From IMG/VR virus record IMGVR_UViG_3300028384_000575, positions 1 to 26,179 of that record: DNA of 26,179 nucleotides. One strand, given 5' to 3'. The stretch's first letter is position 1. Each line of letters starts with the position of its first letter. Source of the stretch: a virus. The position numbers and the translations under genes were made by a program. The notes under the pieces were generated by a model. It made no database searches. It was not told where the DNA came from and saw only the letters and a list, made by a program, of their open reading frames with translations. Positions 1,210-25,857 of the stretch are shown piece after piece.

Positions 1210-2019
1210 TTAGGGGAAACTTTTCATCAAGTCTGTTTTTACAGCGAATAACTCAGTTGCTGATGTAGAATCATTCTCTAATACGAACTCACAGTAATGT
1301 CCTAAGACACCGTGTGATTCAGCAGTTGAGTTTTTAATATATAAGAAGTATGCATCCTGAATAGGAATTGGTGTTACAGCTCCCGGTATTGATGCGTCTA
1401 ATACAATCTGATTAATACCATTTACCAAGTCAACATTTACAGATGTAATTTCTCCTGCAAGTTGAGGACTACTATAAGCAGGTGTATCTGTTGGGAGTGT
1501 GAAGTATGCGTAATCACCAACACTAACAATGCTACCTATACCAACGCTAACTGCGAAGTTTAGTTCAGGTGCTGATGAAGTACCACCAACACTTGTTGTT
1601 CTACCTAAACCATTCAATGAGCGTAGTTCAAACTCTTCCTCTGTTGCAGGTATTGGTGATGTAGTTCTTACAAAAGCAAACCAAGAGCCTTCTTTTTTTT
1701 CAAACCATGAATCAGATATGTTTCCTGTAGTTTGAATATCAGTTGTTATTGTTGCTGACCAAGCATCATCGGCTTCTAAAACTATTGTTTTAAATAGTTT
1801 ATTCTCAAGTGGTGTTTCATTAAAGACACTCGTTATCGTTGAGGTATACTGCTGACCATAAAAATTATTTCTCGTCTCGTTAGTATTATGTCTCCACAAA
1901 TTTCCACCCTTAAATGAATAAAAAAACTGATTCATACCCATCATAAAATCAGGATAATAAGAGTAAAATGATGGCCATCCCTTTGAGGATTCGCTATATG
2001 TTAATGTGTAATTAGGCAT
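1210..2019 (-). CDS. Distal tail / virion structural protein
   Basis: A 269-aa protein beginning MPNYTLTYSESSKGWPSFYS. I chose the ATG at 2019 over one at 2046: the later start lies 11 bases past the preceding stop and behind an A/T-rich leader, whereas the earlier one adds a basic tail that overlaps the upstream gene by 16 bases. The N-terminal ~60 residues hold an aromatic motif (WPSFYSYYPDFMMGMN, then FYSFKGGNLWRHN and RNNFYG) that I recognise from tail proteins of Bacteroidetes podoviruses, including crAss-like phages, usually encoded just after the nozzle gene. The remainder is beta-rich with many Thr/Ser and no enzyme motif. Position after the nozzle gene and the 320-aa protein supports a role at the tail tip or nozzle. 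Exact role unknown. Confidence 0.7.
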   Translation of the reverse strand: MPNYTLTYSESSKGWPSFYSYYPDFMMGMNQFFYSFKGGNLWRHNTNETRNNFYGQQYTSTITSVFNETPLENKLFKTIVLEADDAWSATITTDIQTTGNISDSWFEKKEGSWFAFVRTTSPIPATEEEFELRSLNGLGRTTSVGGTSSAPELNFAVSVGIGSIVSVGDYAYFTLPTDTPAYSSPQLAGEITSVNVDLVNGINQIVLDASIPGAVTPIPIQDAYFLYIKNSTAESHGVLGHYCEFVLENDSTSATELFAVKTDLMKSFP

Positions 2020-2030
2020 AATTATTTTTT

Positions 2031-2993
2031 TTAGGTTAGGATACAAGAACCTGTTTCAACTACTATTCCGTATTCTACTTTAATATAAATATTATTATCC
2101 ATTATGTAATAATTAGATGAGCTTGTATCATTTAACAAATTAGCACCATCACTATCTGAAAATACATAATTACCAACGATAGGCCTTGTGTTTGTGTCAA
2201 CTATAAAATTATCTGATATTCCATCTCGAGTTGCATTTCTTGCGAAGTAATAAGTTTGAGTTGCAGTATTACAATTAGCATTAAGTTGAGGCCCTGAAGC
2301 AGTAAATGATGGTAGAGCTGTTGGACAATTAACATCCCATATAAAGAAAGTGCCTGTCAGAGGTGCAAACATTTCTAACTGTAAAGTATTATTTACAGTA
2401 TTTGTTTTTGGTATTACCATTGTAAACGTCTCAGCTTCTCTTGTATCATCCTGATTTGATGTAACTGTAATGGTTCTTGTTGTACCTTGATTTACATACG
2501 TTCCTGCTTCAAGCTCGTATTCAGTAACATTATTATATGGACTGCCTGAAAAAGGGTTATCAGCTCCAAAATAAGTTGGAAGACCTGTTCCCGAGTTATT
2601 AACCCTTCCTATAGGTGTTGAGCTATTATTATTAAATGTTAATGTGTTATATGTATTAGTTCCTAATGTAGCTAATACTCCATCAGGTATAGTTGAACCA
2701 ACATAAAAATAAATAACTACAGCTCCAACATCTGAAGGTGTTCCTCCTAATTCAATATTAGCATTAAAGTATCCGCTACCTGAGAACGATGCAGGAATAA
2801 TATCACCACAAGCTGCAGCGCAAGAAGGGCAGGTTGTAGGCGGTAGTAATAAACCGCTTACCTGCTCTCGAACATCTGTTCCGCTTGAATAAAAACCATC
2901 AGATGCTTTTGTGGTTAATTGAATATCGGTGTAAACAGCAGTTGCATCAAGCAATGTGTCTCCATCTAAATAGTATGTACTTCTTATTGCCAT
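2031..2993 (-). CDS. Beta-rich tail/virion structural protein with Cys cluster
   Basis: A 320-aa protein, rich in Thr, Asn and Ser and predicted almost entirely beta. The N-terminal module (residues 1-50, with AVYTDIQLTTKASDGFYSSG) has the form of short attachment modules seen in tail proteins of marine phages. It is followed by a cysteine cluster, TTCPSCAAACGD (residues ~53-64). The middle and C-terminal parts hold Ig-like strand patterns (RTITVTSNQDDTREAETFTMV) and another Cys-bearing segment (NCNTATQTYYFARNAT). There is no signal peptide, so the cysteines sit in a cytoplasmically assembled protein and may bind metal or form disulphides after release. The gene ends 11 bases before the next start and begins 10 bases after the nozzle stop. 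A tail appendage or adhesin role is inferred. Confidence 0.65.
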   Translation of the reverse strand: MAIRSTYYLDGDTLLDATAVYTDIQLTTKASDGFYSSGTDVREQVSGLLLPPTTCPSCAAACGDIIPASFSGSGYFNANIELGGTPSDVGAVVIYFYVGSTIPDGVLATLGTNTYNTLTFNNNSSTPIGRVNNSGTGLPTYFGADNPFSGSPYNNVTEYELEAGTYVNQGTTRTITVTSNQDDTREAETFTMVIPKTNTVNNTLQLEMFAPLTGTFFIWDVNCPTALPSFTASGPQLNANCNTATQTYYFARNATRDGISDNFIVDTNTRPIVGNYVFSDSDGANLLNDTSSSNYYIMDNNIYIKVEYGIVVETGSCILT

Positions 2994-6000: not shown

Positions 6001-7653
6001 AGACCTTATACTTGTTGAGCTATATACCGCATAATTTTCAGGTGTTGCTGTAAATATATCATCAGAAAGAGTAAGTTGAGTTTCTGAATCTACTGATGTT
6101 ACAATAGTTGATTCGTTTGTGGATTCATTAGTTACTAAAGAATTAACGGTTGTACCATCAGCTATAAAAGTAGCTGAAGAATCAATAAGTTTATTAGCTA
6201 TTACCGATGTATTACTTCCTGAAGATGTTAAATTTATAGTACCAATTTTTCTTACAAAATCATCATCCGTTGCAAGTTCATAAACACTATTAAAATCTCG
6301 CTGTAGAATATAATCAAATTGAATATCTATAGCAGAAGTTTCCTCTGTAGGAAAAGGTGTATCACCTGCAAAACTGTCATGTTCAAATCTTATTTCAAAA
6401 GATAATGTAGCGCCTGTAACTAAATCTTGTCCTGTTAAATCAAATTCAGCTATTGAATCAGTTACAGTAATTGTACTACCAAAAGAATAATCACCATCAT
6501 CTAAAGTTGTAGTTAAATCATTCTCACCAATATCATCAGTTATTAAGTTTGTTGTGTACTCAAACTTAACAGGTATATCATTCTCATCAACTAAGTCGTA
6601 GCCATCTGTATAATTTCCATACATAAGGCGATTACCCATAATGGTTTGAGCTTTTGCTGTGTGGGGTACATTATCGTATAACCTAATTATTTCAGCATCA
6701 TCTAATATGGTGTATATCTTACTGTTAGTAAAAGTATATGTATAATCTGTGTCATTAGCCAATCCTAAATCAGCCTTATCTAATGACTCTATAATTTTAA
6801 TTATAGGGTCATCCATATCTTTAAACAATAAATCTATACCAACAACTAACGGGCCTCCTGAGTTGTATGTTATCACACACTCATTAGCAAAGTTTTCCAT
6901 CCCACTATTTAGATAAGATGAGGTATCAAAAAGAAAGTTTTTAGGTAAGAATGCAGGTTCACTAAACTGAGATGTTGCTGAGTATTCATTATCAGCGTAC
7001 TTATATCTGTACGCAAAACAAATAAATCTATCTTCTAAAAAATTATCCTCAGATGTGTTAGTTGATGGTGCAATAGCAGGAGATGTTACAGGTGGTTTTT
7101 TTATAACCATTAACTGCTCCGCTGTAATCTCATCAATATTAGAGACAGGATTAGGATAGTTTCTTGTTACATTTATATTTCTTGGAGGATTTAAATCATC
7201 CGTAAAAAATAATAAATCATCAACTATATTAACGCCTGTAATTAAATAATCAGAATCAAAGTTTAATGTTGTATTTACTCCTCCACCATCATCTATACTA
7301 ATAACGTGATATGTTAGTACACCATTGTTTACATTATATGATACAATCATATCTAACTTTCCTGTTGCTCCAACAGAAAAATTTGGGTCGTGTACAAACC
7401 AATACATTGTTTCGTGTATACCATCCTCCAATGCGCCAATACATTTGGCGTTATTACTTAGGTTAGTACCATTAAACTGTAAAGTTGTAAGTCGTTCATT
7501 ACCCTTAGCATTCTCAACAGAACCTATTTCAGAGGCTTCTGTAGAACCTAAACGTACATTTAAACCATCGACATACTCCCCGTTTGGAACGAGTCGTTCA
7601 TCGACACTTTTATTCATGCGACCTTGTATAAAATTTCTTTGAATCTTTGCCAT
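3004..7653 (-). CDS. Tail nozzle protein, T7 gp12-like (tail tubular protein B / stabilisation protein)
   Basis: At 1549 residues this is the largest gene in the window. Its start, MAKIQRNFIQGRMNKSVDER followed by LVPNGEYVDGLN and the SEIGSVENAKGN segment, is the signature of the podovirus nozzle/stabilisation protein found in marine Bacteroidetes phages and crAss-like phages. That family folds as beta-propeller and fibronectin-like domains around the exit channel for DNA. T7 gp12 is about 790 aa, so this version is roughly doubled by inserted beta domains. One insert is residues 477-546 (SSGSNTSV to YAVYSS), which also occurs in the upstream ring/adaptor gene. Cysteine pairs occur at DCGEC (~918) and CIDCG (~1266). 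The C-terminus is DVCCQC followed by a run of Asp/Glu. It lies one base from the preceding 301-aa gene. Confidence in the family is good; the domain boundaries are approximate. Confidence 0.82.
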   Translation of the reverse strand: MAKIQRNFIQGRMNKSVDERLVPNGEYVDGLNVRLGSTEASEIGSVENAKGNERLTTLQFNGTNLSNNAKCIGALEDGIHETMYWFVHDPNFSVGATGKLDMIVSYNVNNGVLTYHVISIDDGGGVNTTLNFDSDYLITGVNIVDDLLFFTDDLNPPRNINVTRNYPNPVSNIDEITAEQLMVIKKPPVTSPAIAPSTNTSEDNFLEDRFICFAYRYKYADNEYSATSQFSEPAFLPKNFLFDTSSYLNSGMENFANECVITYNSGGPLVVGIDLLFKDMDDPIIKIIESLDKADLGLANDTDYTYTFTNSKIYTILDDAEIIRLYDNVPHTAKAQTIMGNRLMYGNYTDGYDLVDENDIPVKFEYTTNLITDDIGENDLTTTLDDGDYSFGSTITVTDSIAEFDLTGQDLVTGATLSFEIRFEHDSFAGDTPFPTEETSAIDIQFDYILQRDFNSVYELATDDDFVRKIGTINLTSSGSNTSVIANKLIDSSATFIADGTTVNSLVTNESTNESTIVTSVDSETQLTLSDDIFTATPENYAVYSSTSIRSVEDSCSGSTFTDEFNCNVPNNLDSLIKVQSGINNANEPISIVTSPSSDIIGLQIPAMKFVDSLTSPTQTVYEYYTITFTSAEYREIGNPTSLHSNRDYEVGMIYMDEFNRATTALVSPNNTVHVPCSNSDTRNQIQVTIPTQQKPPEWATRYKFCIKPDKDTYETIYTNIFYEDVTSNSVYFLLEGENAAKVNEGDTYFVKSDTQGPLNNCVTATVLEKDTKAPDFLSPAPQDSDDNDIPVLGGVYMKMKPRNFSAVFSEDSTIAYGTFSDQEKDKGSYPRMAYTVNLKKDGGEYYDYDVPANSRIKIEIYAERIGKNCGTSAVERRYWASTVNMIASNDYDNFKEWWDGDNAIGALEAAAISDVDCGECEQGVIYNSSINTTGLNSISQTFCDLNLQFLRYSPVGSDDGRLALGFVGIQSGGTSNKKRSRIRMNIEVVRAESTLVFETKPRESLPDTWYESSDSFPITSGFHEGNTQDQTASQPAIVLTDFYNCISFGNGVESYKIKDSITGRKLELGNRVFTTSSQEYKRANRDSDITYSGVFNDESNINKLNSFNLGQLNFKVLEDSFGPIQRLVGRETDVLTFQEDKISYVLQGKNLLSDSSAGGSITSVPEVLGTQIARIENFGMSHNPESYAEWGSKKYFTDAKRGAVLELNGSNYQNEQLMVISEFGMRSWYRDLFIDSFNTHKLGAFDPYMNEYVLSSNDIELPVEEECIDCGVTRTYNITAGTDTTYCVNVGELVGDVTISYNIQSVSSTINIDATYDGTTTSSGNVSTSGSFTFDKDVVGQDEANIEISAATGTAVVEVTVSCPDAQEITIVLIGVTSQAEAGQFIHNEYRWTDGVYISPLHSMQMDFLSGNANPLVSMYETVTGPQGAGIIPADSAVVSIISNKIEPQDNFEFNSSVDKFYYHRSNTLYNNTVSEISTLLGLATEATPITGGPNTFEATFNMPDTDEQYLYLIYDYRNGEQEELCFGTSPKDVCCQCEDEDEEEEFV

Positions 7654-7654
7654 A

Positions 7655-8560
7655 TTATTTCAGCCACTTATCCATACCTCTCAAACTCATTAACAATCTG
7701 CCGGGATGAATATTACTAATTCTAATTTTTGCATTTCTAAGTAGAGCTGTCTTTCTTCTTCTTGCTCTATTTATAATGTACTCTTGAACACCGAGTTTAG
7801 AATTAAGAATGGCGTACTCAATATATGCGTATATGTAATCCTCAAATAACTTATTAACACTTATATCCGCTTCACTACCATTCTCCATTCCATCAGAAAC
7901 GTACTCAATCACACAGCTTTTACCTGCCATGCTTGAGCTAAAGTTTATAACCCCTGTTTTTTTATCTATTCTAAATGTAGGATTCTGATTAGCTGTCTCT
8001 GTGTTTAATCCAAATCTTGCACCTACAGCATAATCAAAATACCAATAACCATCATACATATAACCATACTGTCCATTAAACTGACTGTTTTGGTTTAAGT
8101 AGATACTTTTTTTAGTTCCTTTAATTCTATCAAAATCTAACTCAGAGAACTCAGGTTTTAATATATTACCATCTTGGTCAAACAGTATATTAGCATCATT
8201 GTCCTGAAGGTACGCATCGCTGCTGAAAGCCTGAATATTCTCAGTCATAGGGAATAGAACACCATCCTCATATAAGGATATCCTAACCCAATTAACAAAA
8301 TCCGATGGAAGAACAAACCTTAGTTGGTCTGATACATCAAGTTGTAACACTTTTATTTCTTTAAAAGCATCGTAGTTTAGTTCTTGTATACCACGCTTAG
8401 CGTGAAACAATATCTTATATCTTTCCTCATTATTTACAAGAGAATGATTACCTGAATACATCAACATAAAGTTGTTAACTATATCAGCTAAACTGACATA
8501 TTGATACGAGCCATAATTAGACTCGTTAGTGTAGTAATCAAATTGTGATATATAAGCCAT
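7655..8560 (-). CDS. Head-tail connector / tail ring protein (T7 gp11-like role)
   Basis: A 301-aa protein. Residues ~45-105 (ERYKILFHAKRGIQELNYDA, then a strand, then FVLPSDFVNWVRISLY) give the helix plus LPxDF/Y pattern that I associate with tail-ring or tail tubular A-type proteins encoded directly before the nozzle gene in podoviruses. The middle is aromatic (YGYMYDGYWYFDYAVGARFG). The C-terminal ~80 residues are helical and end in a basic tail (RARRRKTALLRNAKIR). It sits between the 312-aa connector candidate and the nozzle, and the stop is followed by a single base before the nozzle ATG. Function is inferred from position and fold pattern; it could instead be the upper adaptor, with the 312-aa protein as the lower ring. 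Confidence 0.62.
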   Translation of the reverse strand: MAYISQFDYYTNESNYGSYQYVSLADIVNNFMLMYSGNHSLVNNEERYKILFHAKRGIQELNYDAFKEIKVLQLDVSDQLRFVLPSDFVNWVRISLYEDGVLFPMTENIQAFSSDAYLQDNDANILFDQDGNILKPEFSELDFDRIKGTKKSIYLNQNSQFNGQYGYMYDGYWYFDYAVGARFGLNTETANQNPTFRIDKKTGVINFSSSMAGKSCVIEYVSDGMENGSEADISVNKLFEDYIYAYIEYAILNSKLGVQEYIINRARRRKTALLRNAKIRISNIHPGRLLMSLRGMDKWLK

Positions 8561-8568
8561 GTCTTATT

Positions 8569-9507
8569 TTATTTTTGCATTTGTTTTGCCTCTTCAGCTC
8601 CTGCTGCTTGAACAACCTGAATCTCTCTTATAGACATACCTGCGTACTGAAGTATTTTAGCAACCAATGTTGTCTCATCTTCTATAGGAACTTCAAAGTC
8701 TTGAAAGTCAGACTGTGTTGGGTCGTAAGATGGCTCACCTCCCGATAATGAAACATAAGTCCATTTAGGGTCTTTTGGATATCGTATATACTGTGAGTAT
8801 ATGCCACCTTGAGCATCAATAGATGATGGAAATACTGTCAACAGATTTGCCTGCTGTGTATACGCAGGAAACAATGTTGATGGAGCAGTAAGCAATGAGT
8901 TCGTAAGCATAGTAATTTTACTATGGTTTATCTTCTCAGCTTCTACAACTTTAGTGGCATCATATACTATATAATCTTTAGCTGTTGCTGTGAATATGTC
9001 AGCACTCAAAGTTAAAGTTGTTGCTGAGGATATTGCCAAAACATACGCTGTAGTATTGTCTGTAGTGTTAGCAACAACATCACCAACCTTAACCGCATTA
9101 GCCACAAAGTCAGCAGACGAATCCACAAGCTCATTGGCACTTACCGATGTGTTAGTTCCTGATGATAGCTCTGATGTATAACATAAAACTTTATTTAATA
9201 AAAAATAATCATCACCTGTTGTTGTTGGGCTTGGTAGAAAAAATGTATTACTTGAGCTGTGTGTTAAAAAATTAGATACTGAAAATACATCAATAGCTTC
9301 CTCAATTCCTTTTTTATCATCAGCATAATCAGTGCCTGATTGACGTGTGTTTTCTCTATTTATTGCTTGGTTATATTGTACAAAGTAATTCTCGAATATA
9401 TCAAGCTGTGCTTGCTTTGCAAACAAGTTAAAATCCGATGGAGAAATATAACCGTAATTGTTTTTATTTAATACAGCTAATACTGTATTTCTTACTGAGT
9501 TTATCAT
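8569..9507 (-). CDS. Putative head-tail adaptor / tail ring protein with inserted beta module
   Basis: A 312-aa protein. I place the start at 9507 (MINSVRNTVLAVLNKNNYGY), 17 bases below a good -7 promoter element. An upstream ATG at 9567 would read back through the promoter and the terminator at 9536-9563 and add a spurious hydrophobic leader. The N-terminal 70 residues are helical (FNLFAKQAQLDIFENYFVQY). Residues 115-184 are a separable beta module (SSGTNTSV to YIVYDA), about half identical by hand alignment to residues 477-546 of the nozzle protein. The end is helical (ILQYAGMSIREIQVVQAAGA). Position as the first gene after the capsid region and before the ring and nozzle genes suggests a connector. 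Tail completion or a minor virion role cannot be excluded. Confidence 0.6.
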   Translation of the reverse strand: MINSVRNTVLAVLNKNNYGYISPSDFNLFAKQAQLDIFENYFVQYNQAINRENTRQSGTDYADDKKGIEEAIDVFSVSNFLTHSSSNTFFLPSPTTTGDDYFLLNKVLCYTSELSSGTNTSVSANELVDSSADFVANAVKVGDVVANTTDNTTAYVLAISSATTLTLSADIFTATAKDYIVYDATKVVEAEKINHSKITMLTNSLLTAPSTLFPAYTQQANLLTVFPSSIDAQGGIYSQYIRYPKDPKWTYVSLSGGEPSYDPTQSDFQDFEVPIEDETTLVAKILQYAGMSIREIQVVQAAGAEEAKQMQK

Positions 9508-24430: not shown

Positions 24431-24703
24431 CTACCAAAGTGCTATTAATCCTGTCGCTGTTGTGTCTGTTGCAAATACTTTAACTACTTGCACAGGTACA
24501 AATTGACCATTGTTTAAGTTTTGAAATGTTACCTCATCACCTCCTGCGGTTAGAACCTTAACATTTCCTCCAACACCCACATAAAGAACACAACCGTTAT
24601 TCTTAGAATATGCGTTTGCACTATCAGCAATATTTGGAATATTAGCTGTATCACTTGGTGTTACTGCAGCTGCTCTGCTTACCTGTAATTTTTGATATGC
24701 CAT
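24431..24703 (-). CDS. Small virion-associated protein conserved in marine phages
   Basis: A 90-aa protein beginning MAYQKLQVSRAAAVTPSDTA and ending FQNLNNGQFVPVQVVKVFAT followed by DTTATGLIALW. The opening, the central GCVLYVGVGGNVKVLTAGGD and the closing TGLIALW are a pattern I recognise from short structural or spike proteins of marine phages. It is beta-rich and probably trimeric, with no membrane segment. It lies 5 bases after the stop of a 51-aa gene and among appendage genes. The virion role is inferred from family and context. Confidence 0.68.
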   Translation of the reverse strand: MAYQKLQVSRAAAVTPSDTANIPNIADSANAYSKNNGCVLYVGVGGNVKVLTAGGDEVTFQNLNNGQFVPVQVVKVFATDTTATGLIALW

Positions 24704-24708
24704 AATCT

Positions 24709-24864
24709 TTATTTATTATAAGGGAACATACGATTTAGTGTGTCACGTCTTTTATTGCAACCACAATCTTTCCCTGTTGCTTTCGCTACTTTTTCTACAA
24801 CAGATTTAACCCCTGTTGCTTTGGTTAATTTTTCTATACTATCTCCTAATCCTTTTGATTTCAT
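24709..24864 (-). CDS. Small basic protein with Cys-x-Cys motif (51 aa)
   Basis: A 51-aa protein: MKSKGLGDSIEKLTKATGVK, then SVVEKVAKATGKDCGCNKRR and DTLNRMFPYNK. The GLGDxIEKxTKATGxK, then KDCGCNKRRDxLNxxFPY pattern is one I recognise from many marine phages, close to virion genes. It contains a duplicated TKATG/KATGK unit. Its ATG shares a base with the stop of the upstream appendage gene (TAATG), and its stop is 5 bases before the next start. Function unknown; the two Cys and basic tail suggest metal or nucleic-acid contact, which is a guess. Confidence 0.75.
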   Translation of the reverse strand: MKSKGLGDSIEKLTKATGVKSVVEKVAKATGKDCGCNKRRDTLNRMFPYNK

Positions 24865-25352
24865 TAGCTATAAATTCTTAATTCAAAATAAACTTTTTGA
24901 CCGTTTAAATCTTCCTTAACAGCAGGGTCATCTCCGTAAGAATTAAGCAAAAAACCTGTGTTATTATCTCCTGCACTTGTTAATTCATATACAATAATTC
25001 TGTTATTTGGTGAAACACCTACAGCATTATCTATTGACATCCAACCATCACCGGGTACACCTGTTGGAGCATTTAAAGCAAATTCATATTCACCTGCTGA
25101 AAATCTTGTTATGCTAAAACTGTGTTCAGTTGTATTCTCAAATGTAGTTACTGTGGGAGCAGAAGTTCCGCTCTGAGTAATATATCCTGTATAAACTAAA
25201 TATGAACTACCACTACCTGCATTTACAGTTTCGGTAATATCAGCCATAGTGAAAGTTGCTTCTCTACTATTTATAAGAGCAGACCTTCTCTCTGTAGTAT
25301 CTACATTGCTACTTAATGTTTGGAACTTTTGTCCGTTAGGTATTACTGCCAT
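24864..25352 (-). CDS. Appendage protein, tandem paralog 2
   Basis: A 162-aa protein. Residues 1-43 are identical to those of the neighbouring paralog except residue 16 (Asn here, Asp there). The rest has diverged into a separate beta-rich domain (SSYLVYTGYITQSGTSAPTV, FSITRFSAGEYEFALNAPTG) ending in KVYFELRIYS. A fixed N-terminus with a variable C-terminus is the pattern of phage appendage proteins: the first part binds the virion and the second faces the host. The gap to the upstream copy is 13 bases, and its stop shares a base with the 51-aa gene start. Confidence 0.72.
   Translation of the reverse strand: MAVIPNGQKFQTLSSNVDTTERRSALINSREATFTMADITETVNAGSGSSYLVYTGYITQSGTSAPTVTTFENTTEHSFSITRFSAGEYEFALNAPTGVPGDGWMSIDNAVGVSPNNRIIVYELTSAGDNNTGFLLNSYGDDPAVKEDLNGQKVYFELRIYS
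25224..25352. repeat. Paralogous repeat, copy 2 (partner 25729-25857)
   Basis: This block codes for the 43-residue N-terminal module shared by the two appendage genes. By hand comparison about a dozen bases differ between the copies and nearly all changes are silent, so the protein sequence is held constant while the DNA has drifted. That marks an older duplication under selection rather than a recent copy or assembly artefact. Confidence 0.8.
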
Positions 25353-25365
25353 AATTTTTTACTAT

Positions 25366-25857
25366 TTAAAAAACTTTTAATTCGAAATAAATAAACGCAA
25401 GATATGATGATTCATCATAATCAATATCTGTTCCTGACCCATCCCATACTTGAAAAATTAGTTTTGTTATAGGCTGTCCTTCCGCTGTCCGAGATACAAG
25501 TCCATCAATATATTTTTTAGTAGAACCTCCATAAGTCCTTCTGCAGTTAAAGGTAAAACCGTTTTCTACAGTAATAGAGTTTGAAAAAGTAAGTTGATAT
25601 AAACCCGCTGAAGTTCTACTTGCAGTTATTGTTTCGCCTATAGTATTTTGAAATATAGTAACAACAGGAGCATCTGTTCCTTCTTGATAAAAATAACCAT
25701 TTATCACTTGACTTGATGAACCTGAATTTACGGTTTCTGTAATATCAGCCATAGTGAAAGTTGCCTCCCTACTATTAATAAGCGCAGACCTTCTTTCTGT
25801 AGTGTCTACATCGCTGCTTAATGTTTGGAACTTCTGTCCATTGGGTATTACTGCCAT
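25366..25857 (-). CDS. Appendage protein, tandem paralog 1
   Basis: A 163-aa protein starting MAVIPNGQKFQTLSSDVDTT and ERRSALINSREATFTMADIT, identical over 43 residues to the downstream paralog but for one. The C-terminal ~110 residues differ (SQVINGYFYQEGTDAPVVTI, TVENGFTFNCRRTYGG, KLIFQVWDGSGTDIDYDESS) and finish with the related YFELKVF. The two C-terminal domains share a loose pattern (G-Y, then GT-APVVT-F-NT, then SAG-Y-F) and are probably the same fold. Its ATG is 23 bases below a good -7 element. It is probably a host-contact appendage or decoration protein. Confidence 0.72.
   Translation of the reverse strand: MAVIPNGQKFQTLSSDVDTTERRSALINSREATFTMADITETVNSGSSSQVINGYFYQEGTDAPVVTIFQNTIGETITASRTSAGLYQLTFSNSITVENGFTFNCRRTYGGSTKKYIDGLVSRTAEGQPITKLIFQVWDGSGTDIDYDESSYLAFIYFELKVF
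25729..25857. repeat. Paralogous repeat, copy 1 (partner 25224-25352)
   Basis: First copy of the 43-codon module shared by the tandem appendage genes. It also carries the same start context as the other copy (AAATTATG against AAAATTATG), so the leader was duplicated along with the coding part. Confidence 0.8.

Follow-up and report, generated by a model that had tools for sequence, protein, structure and literature searches.

A predicted beta domain, very probably mobile, in ring- and muzzle-type tail proteins and many other phage proteins

The window, i.e. the entire virus record of 26,179 bases that was analysed, carries its structural genes on the minus strand and encodes two tail proteins of different families that contain the same module (Table 1). 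This module is very probably a mobile insertion domain. On our reading, it is an autonomous beta unit some 60-70 residues long that has been inserted in frame into the loops of numerous unrelated phage proteins and has disappeared from some of them again.

Results

Two module copies in otherwise unrelated tail proteins

It had been noted earlier that the two copies align without gaps with about 36 identities in 70 residues, and counting confirms this value on the minus strand (36 of 70 residues, 125 of 210 bases), while a plus-strand reading meets stops in both stretches. In a single BLASTP comparison of the whole ring and muzzle proteins, 38 of 77 ungapped positions were identical (E 4e-17), and outside the module only chance-level segments were found. 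The Smith-Waterman score of the two proteins is 187, compared to a mean of 52.8 and a maximum of 96 when the ring protein is shuffled 1,000 times. Once the modules are cut out, the score is 41, which is reached by 350 of 500 shuffles. The flanks are hence unrelated, as the earlier note had claimed, and homology running on into the flanks, which would have meant a whole-gene duplication, was tested for and is absent. Judged from these alignments, the ring and the muzzle protein share a domain and not a duplicated gene. With the module profile, exactly these two copies are found in the window.

Table 1. Module copies, their host genes and a related gene without the module in the window.
Feature	Position	Strand	Remarks
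Module copy in the muzzle-type protein	6016..6225	-	Residues 477-546; profile E 1.4e-19; 36 of 70 residues shared with the ring copy
Module copy in the ring-type protein	8956..9165	-	Residues 115-184 of the 312-aa form; profile E 2.9e-23
Muzzle-type (nozzle) protein, 1549 aa	3004..7653	-	phrog_14478, E 2.4e-232; hosts the first module copy
Tail-barrel ring/adaptor-type protein, 312 aa	8569..9507	-	phrog_14543, E 1.1e-33; hosts the second module copy
phrog_12296 protein without module	24431..24703	-	phrog_12296, E 2.6e-12; empty counterpart of module-bearing orthologs
The residue numbers of the two copies are valid if the ring protein begins at the ATG at 9507, where its orthologs begin.

The description of the hosts as two different tail proteins holds as well, the "nozzle" matching phrog_14478 and the "connector candidate" phrog_14543, which are both families of virion structural proteins. 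For the 1549-aa protein, no Pfam match was obtained, and its profile has no match among PDB sequences. We assign it tentatively to the crassvirus muzzle type, given its PHROG match and an adjoining gene of 278 aa with matches to Pfam crAss_MUZ_C (E 3.1e-19) and to the C-terminal portion of phrog_14478. The module site could not be mapped onto PhiCrAss001 gp44, with which no sequence match was found.

The ring protein has relatives in 87 phage records, almost all of which come from Flavobacterium or Cellulophaga phages. Its profile finds no credible match among PDB sequences, and its predicted structure (46 aligned sequences, pLDDT 87.1) has the fold of the PhiCrAss001 ring protein: chains 7qoj_D/E/F of the tail barrel are matched by Foldseek at E 1.5e-6 to 3.4e-5, and the best of these, 7qoj_D (1.5e-6), superimposes with Z 12.0 across 193 residues. 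In PhiCrAss001, dodecameric rings are described as stacking into the barrel, and the muzzle as a hexamer located at the tail tip (PMC10172136). Contact with the cell would not readily be expected at a ring protein, a circumstance that we counted against adhesion.

Orthologs with and without the module

Phage MW202828 encodes orthologs of both the ring and the muzzle protein in which the module is missing and the alignment continues directly past it. The module is likewise missing from the ring proteins of Panino and elemo, the flanks of which match those of the window, and no module was found in either record by a whole-record profile search. Those module-bearing ring proteins that were aligned share a single insertion site. 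The muzzle orthologs have two sites in total, the window and L021 using the same one and L002 lacking the module there and carrying it at a later position. The reverse is found for the phrog_12296 protein, which is empty in the window and bears the module in its MW202828 ortholog (54 of 90 residues identical), the only copy that a whole-record profile search detects in that phage. This either-or pattern is not exclusive, since in the contig of L018 both the ring protein and a phrog_12296 protein carry the module.

Altogether, 93 ring ORFs were matched, and the module was found in ten rows, including the window a second time (L008) and a fragment (L052); an additional module-bearing ring protein (L208) lies in the contig of L144. 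None of 80 loci (L054-L133) carries the module in the ring gene, a frequency that is biased by the module-less query with which they were fetched. A ring tree calculated without the module columns needs four changes to accommodate six carriers among 46 rows, and forcing the carriers together is rejected (p-AU 0.0235). Because the carriers do not form one clade, the module must have been gained or lost more than once in the ring protein, two events that this tree does not separate.

Spread across phage protein families

With a module profile that was begun with 40 modules, 281 copies were detected, distributed over 127 ORFs at 120 loci, which correspond to 121 ORFs in 114 records after removal of redundancy, i.e. 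of L008 and L009 (the window itself) and of four contigs that had been fetched twice. The weakest counted row, an end fragment (L042), has an E value of 0.013 and the next weakest one of 3.1e-6, whereas 13,931 reversed ORFs gave no match at E ≤ 0.01, three at 1 and 27 at 10. All 69 loci from a scan with a DNA pattern, which was itself derived from the module, carry the module by profile. Among 24 records picked from the loci of this analysis and searched as a whole, 20 had a match, and six of these 20 had the module in at least two different ORFs, a rate that is not that of a survey given how the records were picked. In the BFVD collection, seven viral proteins with 33-51% identity were matched at E ≤ 0.001 and are probably true relatives.

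When several modules were compared with the phage collection by tblastn, nothing was found at the limits used, and one query gave nine records at E 1 or worse; these negatives are unreliable, as tblastn missed the MW202828 module that the profile found, likely because of the low-complexity filter. The best of the weak tblastn matches (H61, E about 1) has no module by profile, and neither does the ORF of L053, the sole match in bacterial genome contigs, which were scanned with exact peptide patterns; it was consequently dropped.

Similarity of the flanks sorts the hosts into 20 clusters, which by our estimate represent about 17 families, since clusters 3 and 4 both belong to phrog_12296 and the proteins of clusters 10, 17 and 19 start alike by eye. 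According to PHROG, the host families comprise phrog_12296 ("tail fiber"), the head closure family phrog_578 (Hc3), the tail protein families phrog_376, phrog_1640 and phrog_5302, and the families phrog_38559 and phrog_35281 of unknown function. Further hosts are a Phage-tail_3 protein (L188), a Laminin_G_3 protein (L169), a DUF285 repeat protein (L016) and a Phage_min_tail protein (L209) that was found later and lies outside the 20 clusters. Cluster 0 (26 ORFs, some of them cut at an end) has tandem arrays of up to 11 copies at a spacing of about 60 residues, and one of its members, L039, shows a weak H_lectin match at one end. A five-copy array is also found in the contig of L121, in a protein with a weak match to phrog_12296 (E 0.0013). 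The Laminin_G_3 and H_lectin matches are adhesion-like features of the hosts and were counted in favour of adhesion.

Sites were mapped by excising the modules and aligning the flanks, leaving aside the rows of L042 and L047 (end-cut or frame-split ORFs, array copies). Cluster 1 comprises 20 ORFs, one of which was fetched twice, and has four sites with 18, 8, 5 and 1 inserts; cluster 2, likewise of 20 ORFs, has four sites with 7, 3, 5 and 6 inserts. When aligned with seven of the 20 ORFs of cluster 2, gp46 of the cultured Nonlabens phage P12024L, an ortholog of these proteins, is empty at all four sites. On the strength of these alignments, orthologs vary both in the presence and in the position of the module, with up to four sites per cluster.

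The earlier suggestion that the module moves between structural genes is thus borne out with regard to movement by the 20 flank clusters and by the differing sites in orthologs; with regard to the hosts, it stands for part of the clusters, because 7 of the 20 have no convincing family match.

Relatedness and selection of the module copies

The closest relative of the muzzle copy is the copy in the L021 muzzle (69%) and that of the ring copy is the copy in the L001 ring protein (56%), whereas a comparison of the window copies with each other gives 51.6% in the core. There is accordingly no sign that one window copy arose from the other.

Recent copying between genes was not found, the best module DNA identity between clusters being 75.4% over 122 bases when the array cluster is left out. 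Identical module DNA in L135 and L171 is part of a longer common tract (residues 541-720) and looks like ordinary recombination. If only modules with less than 95% identity are considered, the nearest one belongs to a different cluster for 17 of the 21 modules of cluster 2, 8 of the 11 of cluster 4, 4 of the 9 of cluster 5 and 1 of the 5 of cluster 6, but for none of the 32 of cluster 1 and none of the 20 of cluster 3. A module tree of 61 rows and 63 columns has three starred branches and is too short for dating moves. The host labels change 18 times on it, with a possible minimum of nine and a mean of 34.5 for shuffled labels. The labels hence track the host protein more than shuffles do, which, together with the same-cluster neighbours in clusters 1 and 3, counts against pure mobility. 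From our point of view, movement between genes is well supported, the window copies are old, and no recent moves fall within the sample, much of the distribution of the module being due to inheritance.

Among the close pairs with values that could be used, most show a dN considerably lower than dS, in the flanks as well as in the module; several further pairs are saturated or identical. For L035/L137, dN/dS is 0.108/1.350 in the module and 0.132/1.138 in the flanks; the weakest pair is L038/L190, with a module dN of 0.229 versus a dS of 0.347.

Predicted fold

A structure prediction, which the earlier note had proposed as a check, yields a confident fold for the ring-copy module alone (AlphaFold, pLDDT 96.7, pTM 0.83) with six short strands. 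In the model of the ring protein, the strands of the module (113-182) are preceded by host strand 101-110 and followed by host strand 187-192; these two host strands may pair as a hairpin. As the insert sits between two neighbouring strands, the ring fold can tolerate it.

Among the structural neighbours of the module in the PDB are residues 491-564 of lambda J (Z 8.8), residues 166-243 of R4C (Z 8.3), the Solidus tailspike (Z 8.1) and residues 287-370 of the LKA1 tailspike (Z 7.1); the ring model as a whole matches residues 163-251 of RcGTA chain 6tba_7A (Z 7.2). Since barrels from outside phages score nearly as high (ATP synthase Z 7.8, F1/V1-ATPase and Uba1 about 7 to 7.8), the fold does not point to sugars. 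Foldseek gave no PDB match for the module at E ≤ 0.001, and the profile of 40 modules found none among PDB sequences at E ≤ 10. In Pfam and PHROG, the module query P0001 matched nothing and the module query P0002 only phrog_2251 (E 0.13). A search of the 40 modules against Pfam returned ten families, each in one of the 40 and none better than E 0.021; there was no CBM among them, and of the Ig-like models Big_2 appeared in one module (E 0.021), I-set and FN3 being absent from the families at E ≤ 1. No published description of the module was found by text search, which cannot reveal an unnamed domain.

Discussion

With regard to the potential role of the module, we are inclined, with considerable reserve, to regard it as an accessory adhesion domain. 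If ring and muzzle assemble as in PhiCrAss001, with dodecameric rings and a hexameric muzzle, we infer that each tail would carry at least 12 + 6 copies. Such a number of weak binding sites, perhaps for surface polysaccharide as the presumed ligand, could keep the virion on the cell as its main receptor proteins take hold. Of the functions that had been suggested earlier with caution, i.e. decoration of the tail or binding of sugars or of another subunit, sugar binding is made plausible by the structural neighbours of the module, though no more than plausible. We further infer that the module lies exposed on the outside of the tail. The earlier expectation that a profile search would retrieve it from surface loops of many unrelated virion proteins has come true for the wealth of hosts (281 copies in 127 ORFs), in which its surface position is presumed. 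One could speculate further that a single domain family serves as an exchangeable adhesion plug across tail, neck and head-closure proteins of environmental tailed phages, which is possible but doubtful. Phages would then gain, shift, array and drop the module and in this way tune their grip on host polysaccharide, and assembly proteins such as the crass rings and muzzles would double as display platforms.

The main rival to adhesion, namely that the domain makes the tail stiffer by packing on adjacent subunits or on fibre hubs and has no ligand of its own, appears rather unlikely to us. It would suit the nature of ring and muzzle as assembly proteins, and a chain of the JBD30 baseplate (8rk3_b, 480-558) is found among the structural neighbours (Z 6.8), the six-stranded barrel of the JBD30 hub (domain VI) having been described as stabilising the baseplate. 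However, the module is missing from most of the ring orthologs examined, which were fetched with a module-less query, the varying sites in orthologs fit poorly with a fixed contact, and the arrays of up to 11 copies resemble a displayed series.

It is also conceivable that a compact domain is spread by recombination as a tolerated passenger that does little harm and has no steady function. Both the patchy presence at several sites across orthologs and the neighbouring host strands that flank the insert in the ring model would agree with this, but dN lies well below dS in the module of most usable close pairs, L038/L190 being the weakest, and we consider such a passenger distinctly improbable. 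A whole- or partial-gene duplication within the window genome as the source of both copies, for which the ring and muzzle genes lie suggestively near each other, is hardly credible: the flanks by themselves score like shuffles, each of the two host genes has its own module-less orthologs, and the muzzle copy is nearer to the copy of another muzzle than to the ring copy.

The ring and muzzle proteins of crassviruses, which are treated as conserved assembly parts, very probably act as landing sites for a mobile domain as well. The structure paper on PhiCrAss001 reports that the length of the muzzle varies by insertions, and a shared module is not mentioned in its accessible text (PMC10172136). 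With the module profile, an unnamed domain can be traced in numerous phage proteins that are uncharacterised. The natural pairs with and without the module allow the adhesion idea to be tested directly.

The insertion of accessory domains, in this case carbohydrate-binding modules, into the loops of conserved tail proteins is known from evolved Dit, Tal and major tail proteins, only some relatives having the insert. As a precedent for inserts that promote adsorption, inserted Dit domains have been reported to help infection of EPS-bearing lactococci (PMC10688798). The present module differs from these in its host proteins and in having no Pfam CBM match. Ig-like domains (Big2, I-set, FN3) in many structural proteins of tailed phages, which have been attributed to horizontal transfer, are likewise mobile accessory beta domains; the structural neighbours of our module, in contrast, are small barrels and no Ig folds.

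Also comparable are three small beta domains inserted in virion proteins. Residues 162-243 of the R4C hub were called oligosaccharide-binding by the authors, who suspected horizontal transfer, and residues 168-249 of the RcGTA hub received the same name from their likeness to the insertion domain of LKA1 gp49, which has been shown to bind sugars according to the RcGTA authors. The names of the R4C and RcGTA domains rest on similarity, which was counted against adhesion. The R4C match (chain 8gtc_P, which we take to be the hub because of its length and residue numbers) falls almost exactly on the published domain and covers 68 of 70 residues at an rmsd of 2.0 A, with 13% identity. As in these three cases, the module is an insertion, and a clean one when compared with its orthologs. 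However, no sequence relation to the solved examples was found, their domains reside in siphovirus-type hubs and a tailspike and not in crass rings and muzzles, and the Z scores of R4C and LKA1 are only modestly above those of common barrels. Finally, hub domain IV of the lambda tail-tip protein J is described as bearing an OB domain in one of its loops (further sources for these comparisons: PMC11101478, PMC7291167, PMC10276861, PMC7296036, PMC10218006, PMC11445458), and residues 491-564, the candidate for this domain, are at 9% identity the best structural match of the module, with 64 residues aligned at an rmsd of 1.7 A.

Results and Discussion

Along the genes compared between two loci, L135 and L171, DNA identity reaches 98-100% in a tract of about 180 codons that includes the module, whereas elsewhere in the gene it is mostly 50-95%, and because of this difference the tract looks like the product of recent recombination.

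The array proteins, which carry the module in tandem, place up to 11 copies ahead of an end with a weak H-type lectin match, and none of those tested had a PHROG match at E <= 0.01. The single copy in the DUF285-repeat protein lies near the protein end. The module is absent from gp46 of the cultured Nonlabens phage P12024L, though orthologs in its family carry copies; a weak BACON match at its C-terminal end (E 0.0029, below the Pfam cut-off) could perhaps represent another accessory domain.

In the phages collection, a module in record MW202828.1 (region 38108-38578) was detected by profile search but missed by tblastn with module queries, and negatives from filtered searches are therefore unsafe for such T/N-rich domains.

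Features compared
Feature	Location	Strand	Remark
Muzzle C-terminal domain gene, 278 aa	window 1210-2046	-	PF25729, E 3.1e-19
320-aa gene, no known family	window 2031-2993	-	between 278-aa gene and muzzle gene
Adjoining paralogs	window 24864-25352, 25366-25857	-	78/165 identical
Array protein	L039 2496-5969	+	modules, then weak H-type lectin end; relatives exist
Phage-contig protein	L016 1-1869	+	DUF285 repeats (E 6.7e-52), one module
P12024L gp46	L211:3992-6241		cultured ortholog of module-bearing family
Compared gene	L135 285-2738	-	DNA identity along gene
Compared gene	L171 969-3401	+	DNA identity along gene

In the window, the muzzle C-terminal domain is encoded by a gene of its own, apart from the muzzle gene, and the order muzzle, 320-aa and 278-aa gene is similar in MW202828. 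Near the window end, the adjoining paralogs are nearly identical over their first 45 residues and divergent over the remainder, as if two heads had been set on one anchor type.
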